Shown piece by piece: positions 7,295 to 63,966 of a stretch of 64,000 bases of DNA. The stretch lies in contig NC_052354.1 in assembly GCF_009727055.1 (NCBI RefSeq), positions 51,819,143-51,883,142 of the forward strand, given 5' to 3'. Source of the DNA: Benincasa hispida (lineage: Eukaryota > Streptophyta > Magnoliopsida > Cucurbitales > Cucurbitaceae). A model generated the notes under the pieces. It worked only from the letters and a program-made list of their open reading frames with translations. It had not been told where the DNA came from and ran no database searches. A program made the position numbers and the translations under genes. The number at the start of each line of letters is the position of its first letter. Position 1 is the stretch's first letter.

Positions 7295-7777
7295 ATGGAC
7301 GATTCGAACGAACACAAAGGAAATTCCTCGCCGTCGTCTCTGAAGGAGATGCTCAAATCTTCTCTGTGTTTATCTTGTTGCCTCCGTAAGCACCGGAATG
7401 GCCATCATCATCACCATCACCACCACCACCATCACCGGCGGATGTCAATTTCCTCCGACGGCGATTCGCCTGGACCGCTTATGAGGTGTTCCTCTGCCAA
7501 GGATAAATCCAGATCTCGTGAGAGTCCTGAGATCAAGGATCGACGTCCTCATTTCATTTCGCGACTCGGTCGCCATGGACGTCGTCACTCTGCTTCCGCT
7601 GATTTCCGCTACGATGCGCTTAGTTACGCGCTCAATTTCGATGAAGGATACGATGAAGGCCATGTTGATGATGACTTTCCTCTCAGAAATTTCTCCTCTA
7701 GGTTACCGGCTTCTCCGCGGAAATCCTCGCCGTCTTCGTCAAATGCGTCGAGGGAGATGATCACGGCGTTTAGTTAA
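7295..7777 (+). CDS. Short plant protein of unknown function with His11 run
   Basis: A 160-residue single-exon frame and the only intact host-like gene seen. Its base composition is clearly richer in G+C than the flanks and it lacks transposon motifs. Features: a polar start with a Ser/Lys stretch (residues 11-22), a Cys-rich CLSCCLRKH segment (25-33), 11 consecutive histidines (37-47), basic Ser/Arg sequence (66-100), then a core FRYDALSYALNFDEG (104-118), and FPLRNFSSRLPASP (128-141) before a Ser-rich tail. No signal peptide or membrane helix. I recognise the RYD-LSYALNFD pattern as common to small plant-specific proteins of unknown role, but cannot name the family with certainty. The first in-frame ATG fits the TATA box; the stop is TAA. 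Likely soluble; no function is claimed. Confidence 0.8.
   Translation: MDDSNEHKGNSSPSSLKEMLKSSLCLSCCLRKHRNGHHHHHHHHHHHRRMSISSDGDSPGPLMRCSSAKDKSRSRESPEIKDRRPHFISRLGRHGRRHSASADFRYDALSYALNFDEGYDEGHVDDDFPLRNFSSRLPASPRKSSPSSSNASREMITAFS
7403..7436 (+). repeat. CAT/CAC histidine-codon repeat
   Basis: A run of CAT and CAC codons encodes 11 histidines inside the 7295 gene. Codons are mixed, which slows slippage, so the length may be kept by selection, but simple repeat expansion explains it as well. Confidence 0.9.
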
Positions 7778-16323: not shown

Positions 16324-17225
16324 CTAGATTGTCCGCTCAGACTGACCATTCGTCCGTGGATGAAAAGCTGTACTGAAATATAACGTGGTACCCATAGCTT
16401 TCTGTAAGCTAGGCCAAAACTTCGATGTAAACCTGGAATCTCGATCTGATACAATTGAAACTGAAGCCCTAAAGTGACTCATAATTCGATCAACATATAG
16501 CTTAGCTAATTGGTCTAGGGTAAAAGTAACTTTAACAGGTAAAAACTTAGTTGTTTTTGTCAATCTATCTACAATTACCCATACACCATCATAGCTCGTT
16601 GGTGTCCTAGGTAACCCAACAGGAAATCCATCATAACATGTTCCCATTTCCACTCTGGTACTGGGAGTGGATTAAGTAATCCTGCTCGCCTCTATCTTTC
16701 TGGCTTAACTTGTTGACATATTAGACACCTGTCAACATACTCTGCTATTTCTCTTTTCATACTAGGCCACCAGTACGATGTCTTTAATGTTCTGTACATC
16801 TTCGTACTGCTTGAATGCATAGCATAAGCCGAACTATGTGCCTCTTCTAGAATAGCTTGTTTAAGTGCTAAGTTATTAGGTACGCATACCTTACCTTCTT
16901 TTAACAGCACTTTTTCTGTTCTTAATTGGTAGTCCGTCCTTAATTCTTTACCTACTTCTTTAGCTAACTTCTGAAGATCGGAATCCTTTAACTGTTCACG
17001 TAGAATATCTTCTACGAGAGTAAGACGTACTTGAATTGAAGCTAGTAAACCTCCTATTTGACCAACTGATAATGCTGCTTTAGCATTATACAACTCATGT
17101 ATCAGTTCACCTTTCACTGAATAGATACTAGCTCTAGTTGATCTGGTGTTTCGACTTAGAGCATCAGCTACCACATTTGCTTTACCTGGGTGGTAATCAA
17201 TTGTACAGTCATAATCTTTGATCAA
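16324..17225 (-). pseudogene. Gypsy integrase core remnant
   Basis: The part at 16692-17225 begins with the end of RNase H (DYHPGKANVVADALSR) and then the zinc-binding HHCC region (H-SS.. with YWWPSMKREIAEYVDRCLIC). The DDE core follows at 16324-16653: VWVIVDRLTKTTKFLPV, IVSDRDSRFTSKFW and HPRTNGQSERTI supply catalytic Asp and Glu positions. A break lies between 16653 and 16692 and another after 16324. Integrase joins the cDNA ends to the genome; the reading is interrupted and inactive. Confidence 0.85.
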
Positions 17226-17240
17226 CTCGATCCATCTTTT

Positions 17241-18483
17241 CTATCTCAAGTTTAGCTCTTTCTGATCAAAGATATACTTCAGACTTTTATGATCAGTAAA
17301 TATATGACAATGCTCACCAAACAGGTAATGTCTCCACAACTTTAGAGCCAACACAACTGCTGCTAATTCTAAATCGTGCGTAGAGTAGTTACATTCATGC
17401 TTCTTTAACTGACGAGAAGCATAGACTACTGCCTTTCCTTCCTGCATCAGCACACATCCTAACCCTTGTCGGGATGCATCATAATAGACCTCAAACTCTT
17501 TACCCAGTGTAGGTAAAGTTAATACTGGTGCTGACATTAGCCTATGTTTCAACACTTGAAAACTGTGCTCGCATTCTGGCGACCACTCAATCTTCGCATC
17601 TTTTCTGGTCAAGTTTGTCAATGGCAGAGCTATCTTAGAAAAACCTTCCACGAATCTCTTGTAATACCCTACTAAACCCAGAAAACTGCGTACTTCTGTT
17701 ATGTTCATGGGTCGTTCCCAGTTGACTATTGCTTCTATCTTTTAGGAATCTACCCTAACTCCGTCAGCTGAAACTATATGCCCAAGGAATACAACTTGGT
17801 TTAACCAAAAATCACACTTACTAAACCTGGTATATAACTTCTTTTCCCTTAGCATTTGCAGCACCATCTTCAGATGTTCTTTGTGCTTCTCTGTACTACT
17901 AGAATATACTAGTATATCATCTATGAAAACTATCACAAATTGATCTAGATTAAGATGAAATATCCTATTCATCAAATCCATAAATACCGCAAGAGCATTC
18001 GTCAATCCAAACGACATTACTAGGAACTCATAGATGTCCATACCTAGTTCTGAATGCAGTCTTTGGAACATCAGTGTCTTTCACCCTCAAATGGTGATAA
18101 CCTGACCTCAAATCTATCTTAAAGAATATTGTGGCTCCCTTTAACTAATCGAAGAGATCATCTATACGAGGCAACGCGTACTTATTCTTAATGGTCACCT
18201 TATTCATCTGTCTATAATCTATACATAATCTAAGAGCACCGTCTTTCTTCTTGACAAACAAGACAGGCGCTCCCCAAGGCGACACACTGGGTCTAATGTA
18301 CCCCTTATCCACAAGTTCCTGTAACTGAACTTTTAACTCCTTCAGTTCTGTTGGTGCCATCCTATATGGTGCCTGGGATATAGATGCAGTACCTGAAATT
18401 AACTCAATAGTAAACTCTATTTCCCTGTCAGGTGGTAAGCCTGGTAACTCTTCAGGGAACACATCTAAGAATTCTTGTACCAC
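17241..18483 (-). pseudogene. Gypsy reverse transcriptase and RNase H remnant
   Basis: RT spans three frames: 18145-18483 ([35 protein letters not shown]), 17742-18071 ([11 protein letters not shown] holding the catalytic Asp pair, [11 protein letters not shown]) and the start of 17241-17708 ([19 protein letters not shown]). RNase H follows in that last frame ([43 protein letters not shown]). Breaks near 18090-18145 and 17710-17742 are single stops or shifts. All core motifs are recognisable, so decay is moderate. Confidence 0.9.
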
Positions 18484-18513
18484 AGATACGTCTTCAGGTC
18501 TCAGCTTCTTATC

Positions 18514-18939
18514 CTATGAAACTGCTACATAGGCTAAATAGGCTTCACATCCTTTACTCAGCAGTTTTCTAGCCTTCACTGCTGATATTAAACTTCCTAG
18601 AAGTATTCTTTTACTTCCTACCAGGGTTATTTCTTTTTTACCTTGTTTCTTAAACACTATTTCTTTCTTAAAACAATCCACAATGGCATAGTATTTACTT
18701 AGGAAATCCATACCTAAGCTAATATCAAACTCTAATAATTCTAACGGAATCAAGTTAACCCATAAACTCTGATTTCCAAGAATTACTTCACAATTTCTGT
18801 AATACTCATGTACAACTAGAGTATCTCCTACAGACGTAGAGATAAACAAATCCTCATTCATACGCTCAAGCACTCTATTTATATGCAATGCACACATGCT
18901 AGATATGAATGAGTGCATAGCACCAGGATCAAATAACAC
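18514..18939 (-). pseudogene. Gypsy aspartic protease remnant
   Basis: A retropepsin-like domain. The active-site triplet is read as D-P-G in VLFDPGAMHSFIS, where the family has D-S/T-G, so the second residue is altered. The flap and second half (LLEFDISLGMDFLSKYYAIVD) are recognisable. It is separated from RT by a stop near 18500. The protease would cut Gag-Pol into mature parts. Confidence 0.8.
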
Positions 18940-19040
18940 ATAAGCGGACTGATTACATAAAGTTATCGTACCAGTTACGACATCTGAGCCTCTTCCACTT
19001 CTTGGTGTGTCACAGCGTATACTCTACCCTGCTGCTGTTG

Positions 19041-20294
19041 TTATTGTTGTTGCTGTTGGGGTCGTCCATCTATCCCTTTCTGCTTAACTGCACCGGATCC
19101 TTCACCTCTGGCTCCGGTCGCTCTAGATTGGTCAACAATCTGGGTAACTCCTCTTTGTTCACCTTGTGCTCCATGACCTAGCTGGGGACAATCTTTCTTG
19201 AAGTGCCCCACTTGTCCGCACTGAAAACACACATTTTTGTTGCCATAACATACTCCTGTATGGTGCTTACCACAGTTTACACATAGTGGTCTCTTTCTTG
19301 TACTAGCTACTGACTCACTACTACGACCTGATACTGATCTACCACTCGGTCCAGCTGTAGGTCTTGACGTCTTTCGAATCGAACCCTGTTGGCTTGTGCC
19401 TCCAAAACTTCTCATATCTGACTGTCCAGAGAATGGGGGAATAAAACTCTTACCTCTCGTTTCTCCAGGCACCCTGAACTATCCCGCACCTGGCTGAAGT
19501 ATATCTTCCCTTGCTACACTCCGCTCAACTCTGATAGCGGTCTCAACTAACTGAGTGAAATTTACCCAATTAGATGTAGAGGTAACGGGTGTACGTATCT
19601 TTCTTCTTAGGCAATTCTCAAATCTTCTGGATCTCTCTTTTTCTTCTGCAATGATCGGAAGGGCATACTGAGATAACTCAGTAAATCTTTGCTCATACTT
19701 AGCAACCGTCATCAATCTCTGAGTTAGCCTAAGAAACTCATCCCTCTTTGCTTCTTTAAAACCACTAGGGTAGTATTTATCCTCAAATACTTGTCTGAAC
19801 TCAGGCTAAGTCATAGTTTCTGAACTACTTCTTCTGGCTTCTATCACTTTCCACCATTTTTCTGCCCTTTTCTGTAGCAAGAATGCCGCTAATCCGACCT
19901 TACGGTCCTCAGGGCATCTCATAATATTAAAACATTTCTCAATTAAGTTCAACCAGACTTTAACATCTACTAGATCTGTGGCTCTATCGAAGGTCATGGC
20001 ACCTAAGGCTTTCAGCCTCTCGACGCCGAATTTCTTCTCTGGATCGATCTGAATCGATCCTACACTCGCCGCCAATCTCTGGGCGATTCTATCAAATACT
20101 CGATCCTCCATCTGGGGATCTACCTTCACCCGTGGTGTACTGAACTCATTTGCAGAAGTCGCTTCCTGCCCTTCTAAGTCTCTAACTCTCTTCCTTTTCA
20201 GATTTGGGTCCTGTCTAGCTTCAGGACCTCCGCTGGTAGGGTCAACATTCCTCTCCTCAGTCTGCCTGCTCAGCTTACCACTTCTCCTCAGCAT
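19041..20294 (-). pseudogene. Gypsy gag with zinc knuckle, interrupted
   Basis: Gag begins at the ATG ending at 20294 (MLRRSGKLSR), 130 bases inside the primer site, and runs through a capsid-like region (KAEKWWK-type segment, LKALGAMTFDRATD) to the CCHC knuckle CFQCGQVGHFKKDC near 19210. It is split into 19806-20294, 19479-19715 and 19041-19472 by stops. The stops near 19805 and 19477 lie where Trp is expected, and that near 19038 lies in a Gln run, all explicable as C-to-T changes on one strand. Confidence 0.85.
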
Positions 20295-20425
20295 CTTTGC
20301 CTAATTATTAAGTACACATGTTAGGGACTTACTTATGGGACACAATCTAATGCATGAACTCTCTCTTTCACCCAAAATCTCATGCTTTACACTCAACCTT
20401 TTCCCAAGTTTTACGTATACCTTTT

Positions 20426-20436
20426 CTTTGATACCA
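20426..20436 (-). promoter_or_regulatory. Primer binding site of the gypsy element
   Basis: Minus strand TGGTATCAAAG, three bases from the LTR end at 20440, close to the complement of initiator Met-tRNA used by many plant LTR elements. It marks where reverse transcription would start. Confidence 0.75.
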
Positions 20437-20439
20437 AGC

Positions 20440-21672
20440 TGTCACATCCCGTCCTAGACTACGCTCTAAGCCTAGGAAAGAACATGACTGCAGTAGTTAT
20501 CAACCATTTTGCTGACACTTACTGCCTAATAACTCTTGCAAATAACTCTGATACCCAAGTATAAACTTATACACAGCGGATGCCTCTTAGGCCAAAAATT
20601 TATTAATTCAAAAACATAACATATTTAAAGTGATTACAAAACTAGTTTTGCAAGTCTCAATGCCCAAAACCTTAGTCCCTATATGAACAACTATAACATG
20701 TGTACAATATTTACAGTACCCACCTAGCAAACGGGTTATAATATCTTTGTTCTTTAGTGGTAGTCCGGCTTGGATCTGTATCTGTCCCCATCCTCAGGAG
20801 GTCTATCCCGTGGTGGTCTGTCCAGTCTAGAGTAGTGATCTCCGTGGGCGAGGCGTGACGCATTTCCAGCTATCTCCTGAGGATTTGATCGCTACCTGGA
20901 GGAAAGGAAAACATTTGAAAACGGGGTGAGCTTGTTAGCCCAGTGAGTGACTTAAGAAAGATAACTGATTCTCATGCAAAAGTCTCAATAAAGAGATTAA
21001 ACTGAAATATAAACTTCTACAGTAACCTTGTACTGCAGTATAAACATTTTCCAAGCATAAAACATATAAAGCTGTTTTTTTATCAGAAAACATTAACACT
21101 ATTTCTTAGTTGAGAATAACCCTGCTGTGGTTAAATCCTAACACCAACTGCTAGTCAAGAGAGAACCCTTCTGCTCAATCTCTGACTTTAACTACCTACG
21201 TGCACGTGGCCATACTAGCACGGTTATACCTTAGGTACTTCTGCTCAGATACCTTCTCTAAACTTTTCCTTCAGTATCGAGCTATTCGGATACCTTCTTA
21301 AATGTCCTTCGGTATCACGTTTCAAGTAAAACTAGTCATAAATGACTTTCTTTTTAAAGCATGTAAAGTATAACATATATAAAACATGTCTTTAAAGATA
21401 CTAATGCATGCTGGGTGTATTTAACACACATAAATAGCTTTTCAGTAAACTTTTCATACATGACATGCGTTTAAAACATAATTCATGGTTTGCTTGGAAA
21501 CTACTTTGTAAAACAAGTTGGCATGAGAATAATCTTTCTTTAAAATATGGTTTCTTTAAAACATTGTAAATATTTTAGTCATCACCTTGTCGTCTAGGAA
21601 CTTTTCACTCTAGAAATTCTTTATTTACCTCAGGCTCCCTTTTGAACCCCTAAAATTCAGATTCAATTTAAA
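20440..21672 (-). repeat. Truncated 5' LTR of the gypsy element
   Basis: Matches the first 1.15 kb of the 3' LTR (12771-13916), including 'gctgacacttactgcctaat' and 'tcaagtaaaactagtcata', and carries an extra 100 bases near 20765-20870. It stops at 21672, where it runs into RT sequence of another copy, so the U3 part and left target site are missing. Confidence 0.85.
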
Positions 21673-22740
21673 ATTGTGCTCGCATTCTAGCGACCACTCA
21701 AACTTCGCATCTTTTCTGGTTAGGTTTGTCAATGGCAGAGCTATCTTAGAAAAGCCCCCCACGAATCTCCTGTAATAACCTACTAAACCCAGAAAACTAC
21801 GTACTTCTGTTACGTTCATGGGTAGTTCCCAGTTGACTATTGCTTCTATCTTTTGGGAATCTACGCTAACTCCGTCAGCTGAAACTATATGCCCAAGGAA
21901 TACGACTTGGTTTAACAAAAAATCACACTTACTAAAATTGGCATATAACTTCTTTTCCCTTAGCATTTGCAACACTATCCTCAGATGTTTTTTGTGCTTC
22001 TCTATACTACTAGAATATACTAGTATATCATCTATGAAAACTATTACAAACTGATCCAGATAAAGATGAAATATCCTATTCATCAAATCCATAAATACCG
22101 CATGAGCATTCGTCAATCCAAACGGCATTACTAGGAACTCATAATGTCCACACCTAGTTCTGAATGCAGTCTTTGGAACATTTGTGTCTTTCACTCTCAA
22201 CTAGTGATAACCTGACCTCAAATCTATCTTAGAGAACACCGTGGCTCCCTTTAACTAATGGAAGAGATCATCTATACGAGGCAATGGGTACTTATTCTAA
22301 TTGGTCACCTTATTCAACTGTCTATAATCTATACATAATCTAAGAGCACCGTCTTTCTTCTTGACAAACAAGACTGACGCTCTTCAAGGCGACACACTAG
22401 GTCTAATGTATCCCTTATCCACAAGTTTCTGTAACTGAACTTTTAACTTCTTCAGTTCTATTGATGTCATCCTATATGGTGCCTGGGATATAGGTGCGGT
22501 ACCTGGAATTAACTCAATAGTAAACTCTATTTTCTTGTCAGGTGGTAAGCCTGGTAACTCTTCAGGGAACACATTTAAGAATTCTTGTACCATAGATACA
22601 TCTTTAGGTCTCAGCTTCTTATCTTGTGAAACTGCTACATAGGCTAAATAGGCTTCACATTCTTTACTCAGCAGCTTCCTCGCCTTCACTGTTGATATTA
22701 ATCTTCCTGGAAGTATTCTTTTACTTCCTACCAGAGTTAT
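21673..22740 (-). mobile_element. Second gypsy copy: protease/RT fragment fused to the LTR
   Basis: The same family as the 12771 element. 22384-22689 is the protease-RT linker (RT start [17 protein letters not shown]), and 21625-22200 carries RT with [12 protein letters not shown] and [17 protein letters not shown]. At 21672 the reading leaves RNase H (ECEHNF) and continues into antisense LTR sequence, making a chimeric tail [11 protein letters not shown]. The counterpart point in the first copy is near 17564. The left edge ends abruptly at 22740 against a copia LTR. This is best explained by a deletion or template switch joining RT directly to an LTR. Confidence 0.8.
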
Positions 22741-43700: not shown

Positions 43701-44970
43701 AAGAAGAGTTTGATATCCTTTAGTGTACTCGATAGCAAAGGTTATAGTTTTGAAGGTAAAGGTGGAGCAATGTATATCTATAAGGGTTCTGAGGTAGTTC
43801 TGAAAGGCATTAAGCGTGGAACACTGTATTTTCTATTAGGTTCCACAATAATAGGTCATGTTGTTGTTGCATCATCAGTCGTTCACAAGGATGATATGAC
43901 TAAGTTATGGCATATGAGACTTGGTCATATGAGTGAAAAAAGAGATGCAAATTCTGTCAAAAAGAGATCTTCTTTGTGGGCACAAGGTGTAGGATTTTGA
44001 ATTTTTTGAACACTGTGTATTTGCAAAACTTCATCACAGCAAGTTTCCAAGAGGTGTTCATCGTACAAAAGAGACACTTGATTATATTCATTCAGACTGT
44101 TGGGGACCTTCCAAAGTTGAATATATTGGAGGCAGTAGGTATTTTTTGTTGATAATTGATGATTACTCATGAATGACTTGGGTTTTTATGATGAAACATA
44201 AAAGTGAAGCCTTCAAGAATTTCAAGCAGTGGAAGATACTGATTGAAACTCAAACTAGGAAGAAGATCAAAAGGTTGCGAACTGATAATGGTCTAGAATT
44301 TTGTGGATCTGAATTTAATGAGTTCTGTAAAGCTAAGGGGATTGTTCGCCATCACACTATTAGGAATACTCCACAACAAAATGGGGTTGCAGAACATATG
44401 AATAAGATGTTTTTGGCGAGAGCAAGATGCATGCTCTCTAATGCAGGGTTGGCTAGAAAGTTTTGGGCAGAAGCAGTAAATACATCATGTTATTTGATCA
44501 ATCGTGGACCTCACACAGCTATTGATTGTAAAACACCTTATGAGATGTCGTCTGGTAAGCCTGCAGATTATTCTTTATTAAAAGTTTTTTGTTGTACTTT
44601 CTACTATCATGTTAATAAGGGTAAATTAGAACCGAGAGCTAAAAAAGGTATATTTGTGGGTTTTGGGGATGGAGTTAAAGGATATAGAGTCTATTCACCT
44701 TCTGAGAATAGAGTCATACTTAGTAGGACTGTGATATTTGATGAAAATTCCATGCTTAACTCAACTGTAAAGCCTTTTGTGACGTCTACTAATGTGGGAG
44801 AAAGTAGTAATGTTGATAAACAGGTGGAGATGCAATTCACTTCAGCTGTGAATGAATTAAAACATCAAGGTGGAAAAGATCAACACGTTACTACAGAAAC
44901 TAATGTGCAACCAGAAATTAATGTGCCTAGAACGTCCAAAGTTGCTTTGCCTGAGAATTCTAGATCATGA
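43698..44970 (+). pseudogene. Element T pre-integrase and integrase
   Basis: Pre-integrase: ISFSVLDSKGYSFEGKGG to LWHMRLGHMSEK (zinc-site His residues). After a frame change the integrase core follows: first Asp in HSDCWGPSKVEYIGG near 44095, second Asp in RLRTDNGLEFCGSEF near 44280, Glu in PQQNGVAEHMNK near 44390. A TGA lies at 44170 where copia proteins normally have Arg. The C-terminal part (AKKGIFVGFGDGVKGYRV, VILSRTVIFDENS) is intact to 44970. Confidence 0.88.
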
Positions 44971-45027
44971 GTAGATCAACCAAGTATAGCTCATGATAGA
45001 ACTAGAATAGTTGGTGTTGGACCTCCT

Positions 45028-46641
45028 ATGAGGTATGGTTTTAAAGATATGGTTACTTTTACGTTGCAGGTTGCTGAAGAGGTAGATCCTCATGAGCCAT
45101 CCACTTATAGAAAAGCTGTGTCATGTGGTGAGTCTGCTAAATGGCTTGCTGCTATGGAGGATGAGATGGAATCTTTTGACAAAAATCAGACTTGGGAATT
45201 AGTTAAACGACCTAAGAAGAGAAAAATTGTCACTTGTAAATGGGTCTTCAAGAAAAAGGAGGAAATATCACCTTCAGAGGGCATTAAATATAAAGCTCGA
45301 GTTGTTGCTAGAGGGTTCACACAAAGGGAAGAAGTTGATTATAATGAGATCTTCTCACCAGTAGTCAGACATACTTCTATCAGGGTGTTACTAGCTATAG
45401 TAGCACATCATAGTTTGGAACTTAAACAACTAGATGTGAAGACAACTTTCTTACATGGAGAGTTGGAGGAAGAGATTTATATGACCCAACCAGATGGGTT
45501 CCAATGTCCAGGTAAAGAAGATTATGTTTGCAAGTTGAAGAAATCTTTGTATGGGTTAAAGTAGTCTCCAAGGTAGTGGTACAAACGATTTGATAGCTAC
45601 ATGATTGGATTTGGCTATAACAGGAGTCCATATGATTGTTGTGTATATTATAACAAAGCTGATGATGGTTTGATGATTTATCTACTTTTATATGTAGATG
45701 ATATGCTCATAGCTGCAAAGTCCAAGTCTGATATTCTAAAATTGAAGAATCTTCTCAGTGCTGAGTTTGATATGAGGGATTTGGGTGCTCCTAAAAAAAT
45801 TTTGGGTATGGAGATTTATAGGGACAAAGATAAGAATTAGCTCTTCTTGTCGCTGAAATGATATATTCAGAAAATATTGTCCAGGTTTGGTATGTCATCA
45901 GCTAAGCCTATAGATACTCCTAGTGCTGTAATTGTTCGTTTGTCATCTGTGCTTTGACCACAGTCTAAAGCTCAGAAGGAGTACATGTCTCGAGTTCCTT
46001 ATGCTAGTGTAGTGAGAAGTTTGATGTATGCTATGGTCTGTACTATGCCTCATCTTGCCCATGTCTTTAGTGTTGTCAGCAGGTTCATGGGTTAACCTAG
46101 GAAGGAGCATTGGCAAGTCGTTAAAAGAATTTTTCGTTACCTTAGAGGTACATCTGATGTTGGTCTTGTTTATGGGAATTGCACAGAATGTTTGGTGACT
46201 GGTTATTCTGATTCTGACTATGTTAGAGATGTTGATAGTAAGAGGTCTATGACTGGCTATGTGTTCACTCTAGGTGGTTCTGTTGTTAGTTGGAAGGCAA
46301 CCTTACTGCCTACAGTTACTTTGTCTACTAATGAAGCAGAGTACATGGCCTTGACAGAAGCTGCTAAAGAAGGAATATGGCTGAGGGGGTTAATTAGTGA
46401 TCTTGGTTTGCATCATGACCAAGCTATTGTATATTGTGATAGTTTGAGTGCAATATGCCTAGCTAATGATCAAGTTCATCATGAGAGAACTAAGCACATA
46501 AATGTAAGATATCAATTCTTAAAAGGTGAGTAGAGAGTTAAAGTGATGAAAATTGGTACTGCTGATAACCCTGCTGATATGTTCACCAAACCGGTTCCAC
46601 AAGGCAAGTTCCAACATTGTTTGGACTTGCTGAATGTTTGA
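45028..46641 (+). pseudogene. Element T reverse transcriptase and RNase H
   Basis: RT: TWELVKRPKKRKIVTCKWVF, KARVVARGFTQREEVDYNEI, LKQLDVKTTFLHGELEEEI, KKSLYGLK then TAG at 45562 where Gln is usual, and the catalytic LLLYVDDMLIAAKSK near 45700. Stops near 45840, 45955 and 46093 split the thumb region. RNase H: GYSDSDYVRDVDSKRSMTGY, VSWKATLLPTVTLSTNEAEY, YCDSLSAICLAND, ending [13 protein letters not shown] near 46600. All catalytic residues are visible, but no long frame remains. Confidence 0.9.
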
Positions 46642-62756: not shown

Positions 62757-63966
62757 TTCACTCTCTCTTGGCTCGTTGCCTGTTAGGTATCTGGGTTTAC
62801 CTTTATTGGTGGGTCGGTTGAGGGCTGTGGATTGTGCGCCTTTGATACAAAGGATTACAGCTCGTATTAGAAGTTGGGCAGCGAGATCCCTCTCCTTTGC
62901 TAGGAGGTTGCAGCTTGTTAGGTCTGTTTTACAGTCCTTTAAGGTTTTTTAGTGTAGCATCTTTGGTTGCCGGGGGGCGCAATTTTGGATTCATATGGGT
63001 CTACGGTGGTTCATGATGCAATGAGTAGTTTAGAAGCTGTCTCTTATACACATCTAGATGTGTATAAGAGACAGCGTTATGGGAGGTCTTGGTGCTTGAG
63101 GGCTATCTTACGAAGTAGATATAGATTCAAGCATCTGGTTCGTTTGATGATTGGCGATGGACGGTCTTGTTTTGTTTGGTGGGATCCTTGGCTGCCGGGG
63201 GGCGCGATTTTGGATTCATACAGTCTACAGTGGTTCATGATGCATGGAGTAGTTTGGAAGCACGATTGTCAGAGTTTTTGGATGGTGAGGGAGGTTAGAG
63301 GTGGCCTACAGTGTCTTGGGAGCTGCTTGAGATCTGAGGTCTTATCCAGGTAATGGGGTCTAGGGTGAGGGGAGAGGATTACTGGGTTTGGGTGTCGAAT
63401 GCTAGTGGTCGATTTTCTATCGCTAGTGCTTGAGAGAGTATACGTCCTCGTCGTCCTAGGGTGTTTTGGGCTGGTATGTTGTGGGCGGGGGGTGGTATTC
63501 CGCATCACTCCTTCTATGTGTGGTTAGCAGTGAGGGACATGTTGGGTACTCGTGATTGGTTGAGGAGTTGGGGTGTGTTTTCGGAGGGGGGTGTCTTCTG
63601 TGTGGGGGAGGTGTGGATTCGTAGTATCATTTATTTTTTGAGTGTGGGTTTGGGAGAGAGGTGTGGTCTAGTGTGTTGCGTCAGTTGGGTTTGACACATC
63701 GGGTGGCTGGTTGGGATGTAGAATTGAGTTGGTTGTGCCGTGTGGGGTCAATAAGAGGGTGCGTAGTAAATTGTTCCGTGTTTTCTGGTGTACGTCCATA
63801 TACTACATCTGGCAGGAGCGTAATCGGCGGCTTCATAGAGGTTGACCGAGGTCAGTGTCTACTCTGGTTCACATTATGGTCTCTACGGTTCGTGCTCGTG
63901 CTACTTCCTAGCGGGTTGACCTTCTTGGTCTTGTCTAGTGTGTGTACGGATGTTTTTTACTTTTGA
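62757..63966 (+). pseudogene. L1-type LINE ORF2 C-terminal part
   Basis: Begins with the end of the RT domain: GSLPVRYLGLPLLVGRLR, CAPLIQRITARIRSWAARSL, RRLQLVRSVLQSF. After the adapter block it gives YGRSWCLRAILRSRYRFKHL, GDGRSCFVWWDPWLPGGAI and then the zinc-binding RT-associated region (PHHSFYVWLAVRDMLGTRDW, 63461-63694; LTHRVAGWDVEL, 63661-63966). This is the plant LINE arrangement RT then zf-RVT. Frames change at least three times. About 100 residues between the RT end and 'WLPGGAI' are missing or out of order at the adapter. The composition is much richer in G than the flanks. Confidence 0.8.
63037..63074. other. Sequencing adapter: Tn5/Nextera mosaic ends head to head
   Basis: CTGTCTCTTATACACATCT (63037-63055) followed directly by its reverse complement AGATGTGTATAAGAGACAG (63056-63074). 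These are exact copies of the 19-bp engineered Tn5 mosaic end. Joined this way they are the Nextera mate-pair junction adapter. It is library DNA left in the assembly, not genome. In frame it yields VSYTHLDVYKRQ, a peptide known from contaminated protein databases. Confidence 0.98.

Follow-up and report, generated by a model that had tools for sequence, protein, structure and literature searches.

In the preparation of a Nextera mate-pair library, a transposase adds a 19-bp biotinylated adaptor to each end of a fragment, and the circularisation of this fragment joins both adaptors into a junction of 38 bases, as explained in the sections available to us of the NextClip paper (PMC3928519). According to the same sections, reads run towards or through the junction and have to be trimmed there, and NextClip by default asks for a match to 18 of the 19 bases, or to 34 of the 38 that the forward and reverse copies make up together (PMC3928519). 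The letters of the adaptor are not given in the text examined of that paper and were therefore taken from PMC7357533, which, in the part available, prints exactly these 38 bases as a biotin-labelled ring (circularisation) adapter for fragments of around 4 kb. This was the sole match in the literature searched to the 38-mer printed as one word. Regarding assemblies, library adapters retained in public records have been reported in PMC11536531; the cases in the available part of that paper concern other Illumina adapter sequences, mostly at the contig ends of microbial genomes, and the word Nextera is absent from its main text as we had it. Here, in contrast, the adaptor is internal and the record is that of a plant. 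We found no earlier printed report of such a junction inside a plant chromosome in a literature search that was not exhaustive. For the wax gourd draft, five mate-pair libraries and gap filling with PacBio data are mentioned in PMC6856369, whose main text, as available, contains the words Nextera and adapter 0 times each; nothing in our analysis ties the window to that draft.

The window, that is, the whole stretch of 64,000 bases analysed here, has at positions 63037-63074 the sequence CTGTCTCTTATACACATCT followed by its own reverse complement. The first-pass annotation had claimed two exact, abutting and inverted copies of the 19-bp Tn5 mosaic end at this place, and this is what we found: the first mosaic end is at 63037..63055 on the + strand and the second at 63056..63074 on the - strand, both with 0 mismatches and with 0 bases between them, so that together they make the 38-base junction adaptor. 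We take the 19-mer to be the Tn5 mosaic end in its engineered form, a sequence made in the laboratory by combining the outside end and the inside end that Tn5/IS50 has in nature. The arrangement of two 19-bp adaptors head to head over 38 bases is that of the Nextera (long) mate-pair junction in the available sections of the NextClip paper (PMC3928519), with the difference that here it lies within assembled plant sequence and not in a read.

When both strands of the window were searched for the mosaic end with up to 3 mismatches, only these 2 matches appeared, against a mean of 0.02 matches in 100 shuffled controls, and an independent-base estimate gives a chance of about 3e-18 per window for the exact 38-mer. 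The palindrome extends by 1 base on each side, to 63036-63075, which is expected by chance in about 1 of 4 cases. The window has no N (count 0) and therefore the joint is finished sequence. Neither strand of the window contained any of twelve further strings, some of them possibly inexact, that represent the adapters of TruSeq, Nextera read primers, P5/P7, 454, Lucigen, PacBio, ONT and SOLiD. As the block is located in LINE-like repeat sequence, it could be thought of as an inverted repeat that a plant transposable element carries naturally and that happens to resemble the mosaic end. Nevertheless, the identity to the laboratory sequence is 38 of 38, the 64 kb hold no further near-copy within 3 mismatches, and the likeness between the LINE copies ends at the edge of the block, as described below; we consider this explanation hardly credible.

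The exact 38-mer is not restricted to this plant record. In a collection of 84,980 prokaryote species, each represented by a single genome, it was found in at least 120 stretches belonging to at least 19 genomes. Among the matches listed, 13 of these 19 genomes had more than one stretch, and the stretches were bunched by assembly, with 39 of them in one Enterococcus assembly and 12 in another. The hosts among the matches listed are diverse, including Enterococcus, cyanobacteria, Streptomyces, Collinsella and a Tenericutes bacterium, and they are not all drafts, because 3 of the 19 records are titled chromosome. The 38-mer was also present in 6 viral contigs, where it accounted for 7 stretches, and in 5 of 72,556 plasmid records, and it was absent, at the sensitivity used, from 20,395 E. 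coli records and from 50,697 phage records. Regarding the neighbourhood of the matches, nearly all flanks were distinct: over 154 sites, 150 of 153 left 20-mers and 148 of 149 right 20-mers. Since the hosts are very different, fixed neighbours are missing and the copies are bunched by assembly, a laboratory origin is the best reading of the 38-mer.

As a separate observation, at least 19 public prokaryote genomes still contain the junction adaptor. The Cronobacter plasmid NZ_KY978628.1, which is titled complete, carries it too (positions 301-338 of the stretch read); six places are reported for this plasmid, and they are probably three copies, the palindrome being matched on both strands.

This recurrence in unrelated assemblies also speaks against a genuine insertion of Tn5-type ends into the plant DNA, as could be present in a tagged or transgenic line. 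Such an insertion would account for the presence of ends that we take to be those of an engineered transposon. However, there is no 9-bp target duplication around the block, where only 4 of 9 positions are alike, and neither transposase nor cargo is located between the ends, which abut directly; in all these respects the locus differs from the Tn5/IS50 ends of a transposon. We regard a real insertion as very improbable. An exact 9-bp duplication was seen at 1 of 141 other testable sites.

The flanks of the block could also be compared with the target preference of the transposase. For this comparison we had a weight matrix of 9 positions, made from 291 flanks of 154 sites in the viral and prokaryote scans, leaving out those flanks that had N, ran off the end or started with another mosaic end; these sites come from few genomes and are not independent. 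The matrix prefers G at position 1, T at 2, T or C at 4, A or T at 5, A or G at 6 and C at 9. The known target preference of Tn5 agrees with it at positions 1, 4, 5, 6 and 9; Tn5 also prefers T at 3 and A at 7, where the matrix shows little. Read outward, the left flank of the window was in the top 0.7% of the local 9-mers, and the right flank, which alone is not distinctive, was in the top 18.5%. The pair of flanks scored above 99.1% of random local pairs (top 0.9%), and this rose to above 99.6% or 99.7% (top 0.42% or 0.33%) when one or both of the Enterococcus genomes were left out of the matrix. Thus, as a pair, the flanks look like tagmented ends.

This result is of use in deciding between two types of library, because the same 38-mer could have come from a ring adapter ligated to sheared fragments, which would still be a library artefact. 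Actually, the available part of PMC7357533 describes the joining of exactly these 38 bases to fragments of around 4 kb sheared by ultrasound. Against this origin, the fit of the flank pair to the transposase preference, within the top 0.3-0.9% of random local pairs, would be unexpected for sheared ends. The flank pair therefore favours tagmentation over ligation to sheared ends, although two 9-mers make a weak test, and we consider the ring adapter unlikely.

Regarding the sequence on both sides of the adaptor, the left flank resembles a sequence around 225 bp further right, and both are copies of a repeat. The left flank (62959..63036, + strand) is a LINE-like piece and a diverged copy of 63184-63260, with 87% identity over 79 bases in blastn. 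The second copy (63184..63260, + strand) is free of adaptor, and its likeness to the left flank was seen by blastn, by alignment and by in-register comparison. With the adaptor left in, the blastn match of the left flank ended one base inside the adaptor. An alignment starting from 62944 gave 84% over 94 columns, where the left copy had been cut at the adaptor and so ends there by construction. With the two copies in register, 34 of 38 bases agreed as far as the edge of the adaptor, and past this edge only 9 of 24. To the right of the adaptor, the sequence takes up again at a point 186 bases short of where the right copy ends. This pattern fits a joint of the form 'downstream end, adaptor, upstream end', as at a circularisation between two LINE-like copies, and the left flank at 62959-63036 is likely to be the far end of the circularised fragment.

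The self-ligation of one single fragment of 186 bp was also considered and is ruled out, because the copies are only 84-87% alike; as they are not identical, we take the copies in the window as different copies of the repeat and not as one small circle. The segments 62944-63036 and 63169-63260 make up a diverged (84-87%), LINE-like direct repeat, one on either side of the adaptor, that has the look of a tandem duplication. This direct repeat is probably part of the same misassembly.

A comparable geometry was seen in the viral and prokaryote scans, in a test that had a limit of 2 mismatches and in which 134 of the 154 sites were testable and 20 were skipped. A flank recurred within 3 kb on the far side of the adaptor and in the same orientation at 51 of the 134 testable sites. 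Recurrence on the own side was found at 12 of them for the left flank and at 15 for the right flank, and inverted recurrence at 1 and 1. The left flank of the window has 3 differences from its copy in the last 25 bases and would therefore fail the limit of 2 mismatches.

That the 38 bases are a Nextera mate-pair junction adaptor had been proposed in the first-pass annotation, and this reading is supported, since the exact adaptor, its presence in at least 19 unrelated prokaryote assemblies, the target preference of the flank pair and the break in repeat likeness at the adaptor edge all agree. We consider it very likely that the block is a junction adaptor of the Nextera mate-pair type that was left unclipped and was built into the assembly, and practically certain that we are dealing with a library artefact, whether of the mate-pair or of the ring-adapter kind. 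It is almost certainly an artefact of an already known kind and not biology. The transposase would have tagged each end of a long fragment of plant DNA with the 19-base mosaic end, and the closing of this fragment into a circle would have brought the two mosaic ends head to head. A read through the joint would then have escaped clipping, and an assembler or gap filler may have accepted this read as genomic sequence within a degenerate LINE repeat, a setting that leaves the correct path ambiguous. In this sequence of events, a Nextera mate-pair library would have been used for the assembly, the two joined ends would come from places separated by a distance of kilobases, and the stray read would have entered during contig building or gap filling.

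The adaptor also has an effect at the protein level. An open frame across the block at 62967-63353, giving a false peptide VSYTHLDVYKRQ, had been pointed out before our analysis, and the frame does exist (62967..63353, + strand, 128 aa, with a TTG start); its translation carries VSYTHLDVYKRQ and we consider the frame spurious. A protein search with the 128 aa gave 83 proteins at E<=10 from 492 candidates, 7 of them at E<=0.001, and all of the 83 listed at E<=10 contain VSYTHLDVYKRQ. The other five-letter words shared with the frame were few, and most of them overlapped or touched VSYTHLDVYKRQ. Since the search draws on the words of the query, hits through VSYTHLDVYKRQ are expected; what matters is that the LINE part by itself accounted for none of the listed hits. 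The likeness of these 83 proteins to the frame is, as far as the shared words tell, made by VSYTHLDVYKRQ. The frame of the right flank without the peptide gave 1 candidate and none at E<=0.01; because no relatives of the right flank were found, the order that the LINE pieces would have in nature is deduced from the two copies in the window and from the general layout of such elements.

The three frames of the palindrome read LSLIHI*MCIRD, CLLYTSRCV*ET and VSYTHLDVYKRQ, and these three adaptor peptides are handy flags for false proteins. For SYTHLDVYKRQ, no paper was found in the literature searched. On balance, and judging from the protein sequences, we lean towards VSYTHLDVYKRQ being a false peptide that is widespread, has hardly been documented and lends a spurious likeness to unrelated database proteins; it would be a possible contamination flag for protein databases.

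Regarding the element in which the adaptor is located, we take the translations on both sides of it to be those of a degenerate plant LINE with a zf-RVT-like stretch. This stretch is at 63461..63691 on the + strand and was matched by PF13966 with an E-value of 1.1e-5 and 26.4 bits, the curated cut-off being 27.5. On the other side, the frame at 62776..62949 (+ strand) is probably, to judge by its translation, the end of a degenerate LINE reverse transcriptase; Pfam gave no family for it at E<=1. Of the six frames that were scanned, five were without a convincing Pfam family, three of them having none at E<=1 and two having weak, chance-like matches. The reverse-transcriptase-like frame ends near 62950-62963 and there jumps into the duplicated piece. 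This jump may mark the other edge of the stray read, or else a deletion that the element suffered long ago.

The warning that gene or structural calls across the block are unsafe is justified. Gene models, repeat boundaries, tandem duplications and rearrangements that cross approximately 62950-63080 should all be considered unsafe. Unclipped adaptor reads would thus have entered a cucurbit record as finished sequence, and further copies of the adaptor are likely to be found in the same assembly.

Elsewhere in the window, the frames at 16692-22200 and 44173-45564 are presumably those of retrotransposons, Gypsy-like and Copia-like respectively by their translations. The frame at 7295-7777 encodes a short plant protein that is uncharacterised and contains several histidines in a row, and which had 138 proteins at E<=0.001; among the best 120 of these 138, the named ones are from flowering plants. 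The nearest named proteins, those of Cucumis melo (88% identical) and Cucurbita argyrosperma (80%), bear out the plant origin assumed in the first-pass annotation and place the window in the gourd family.
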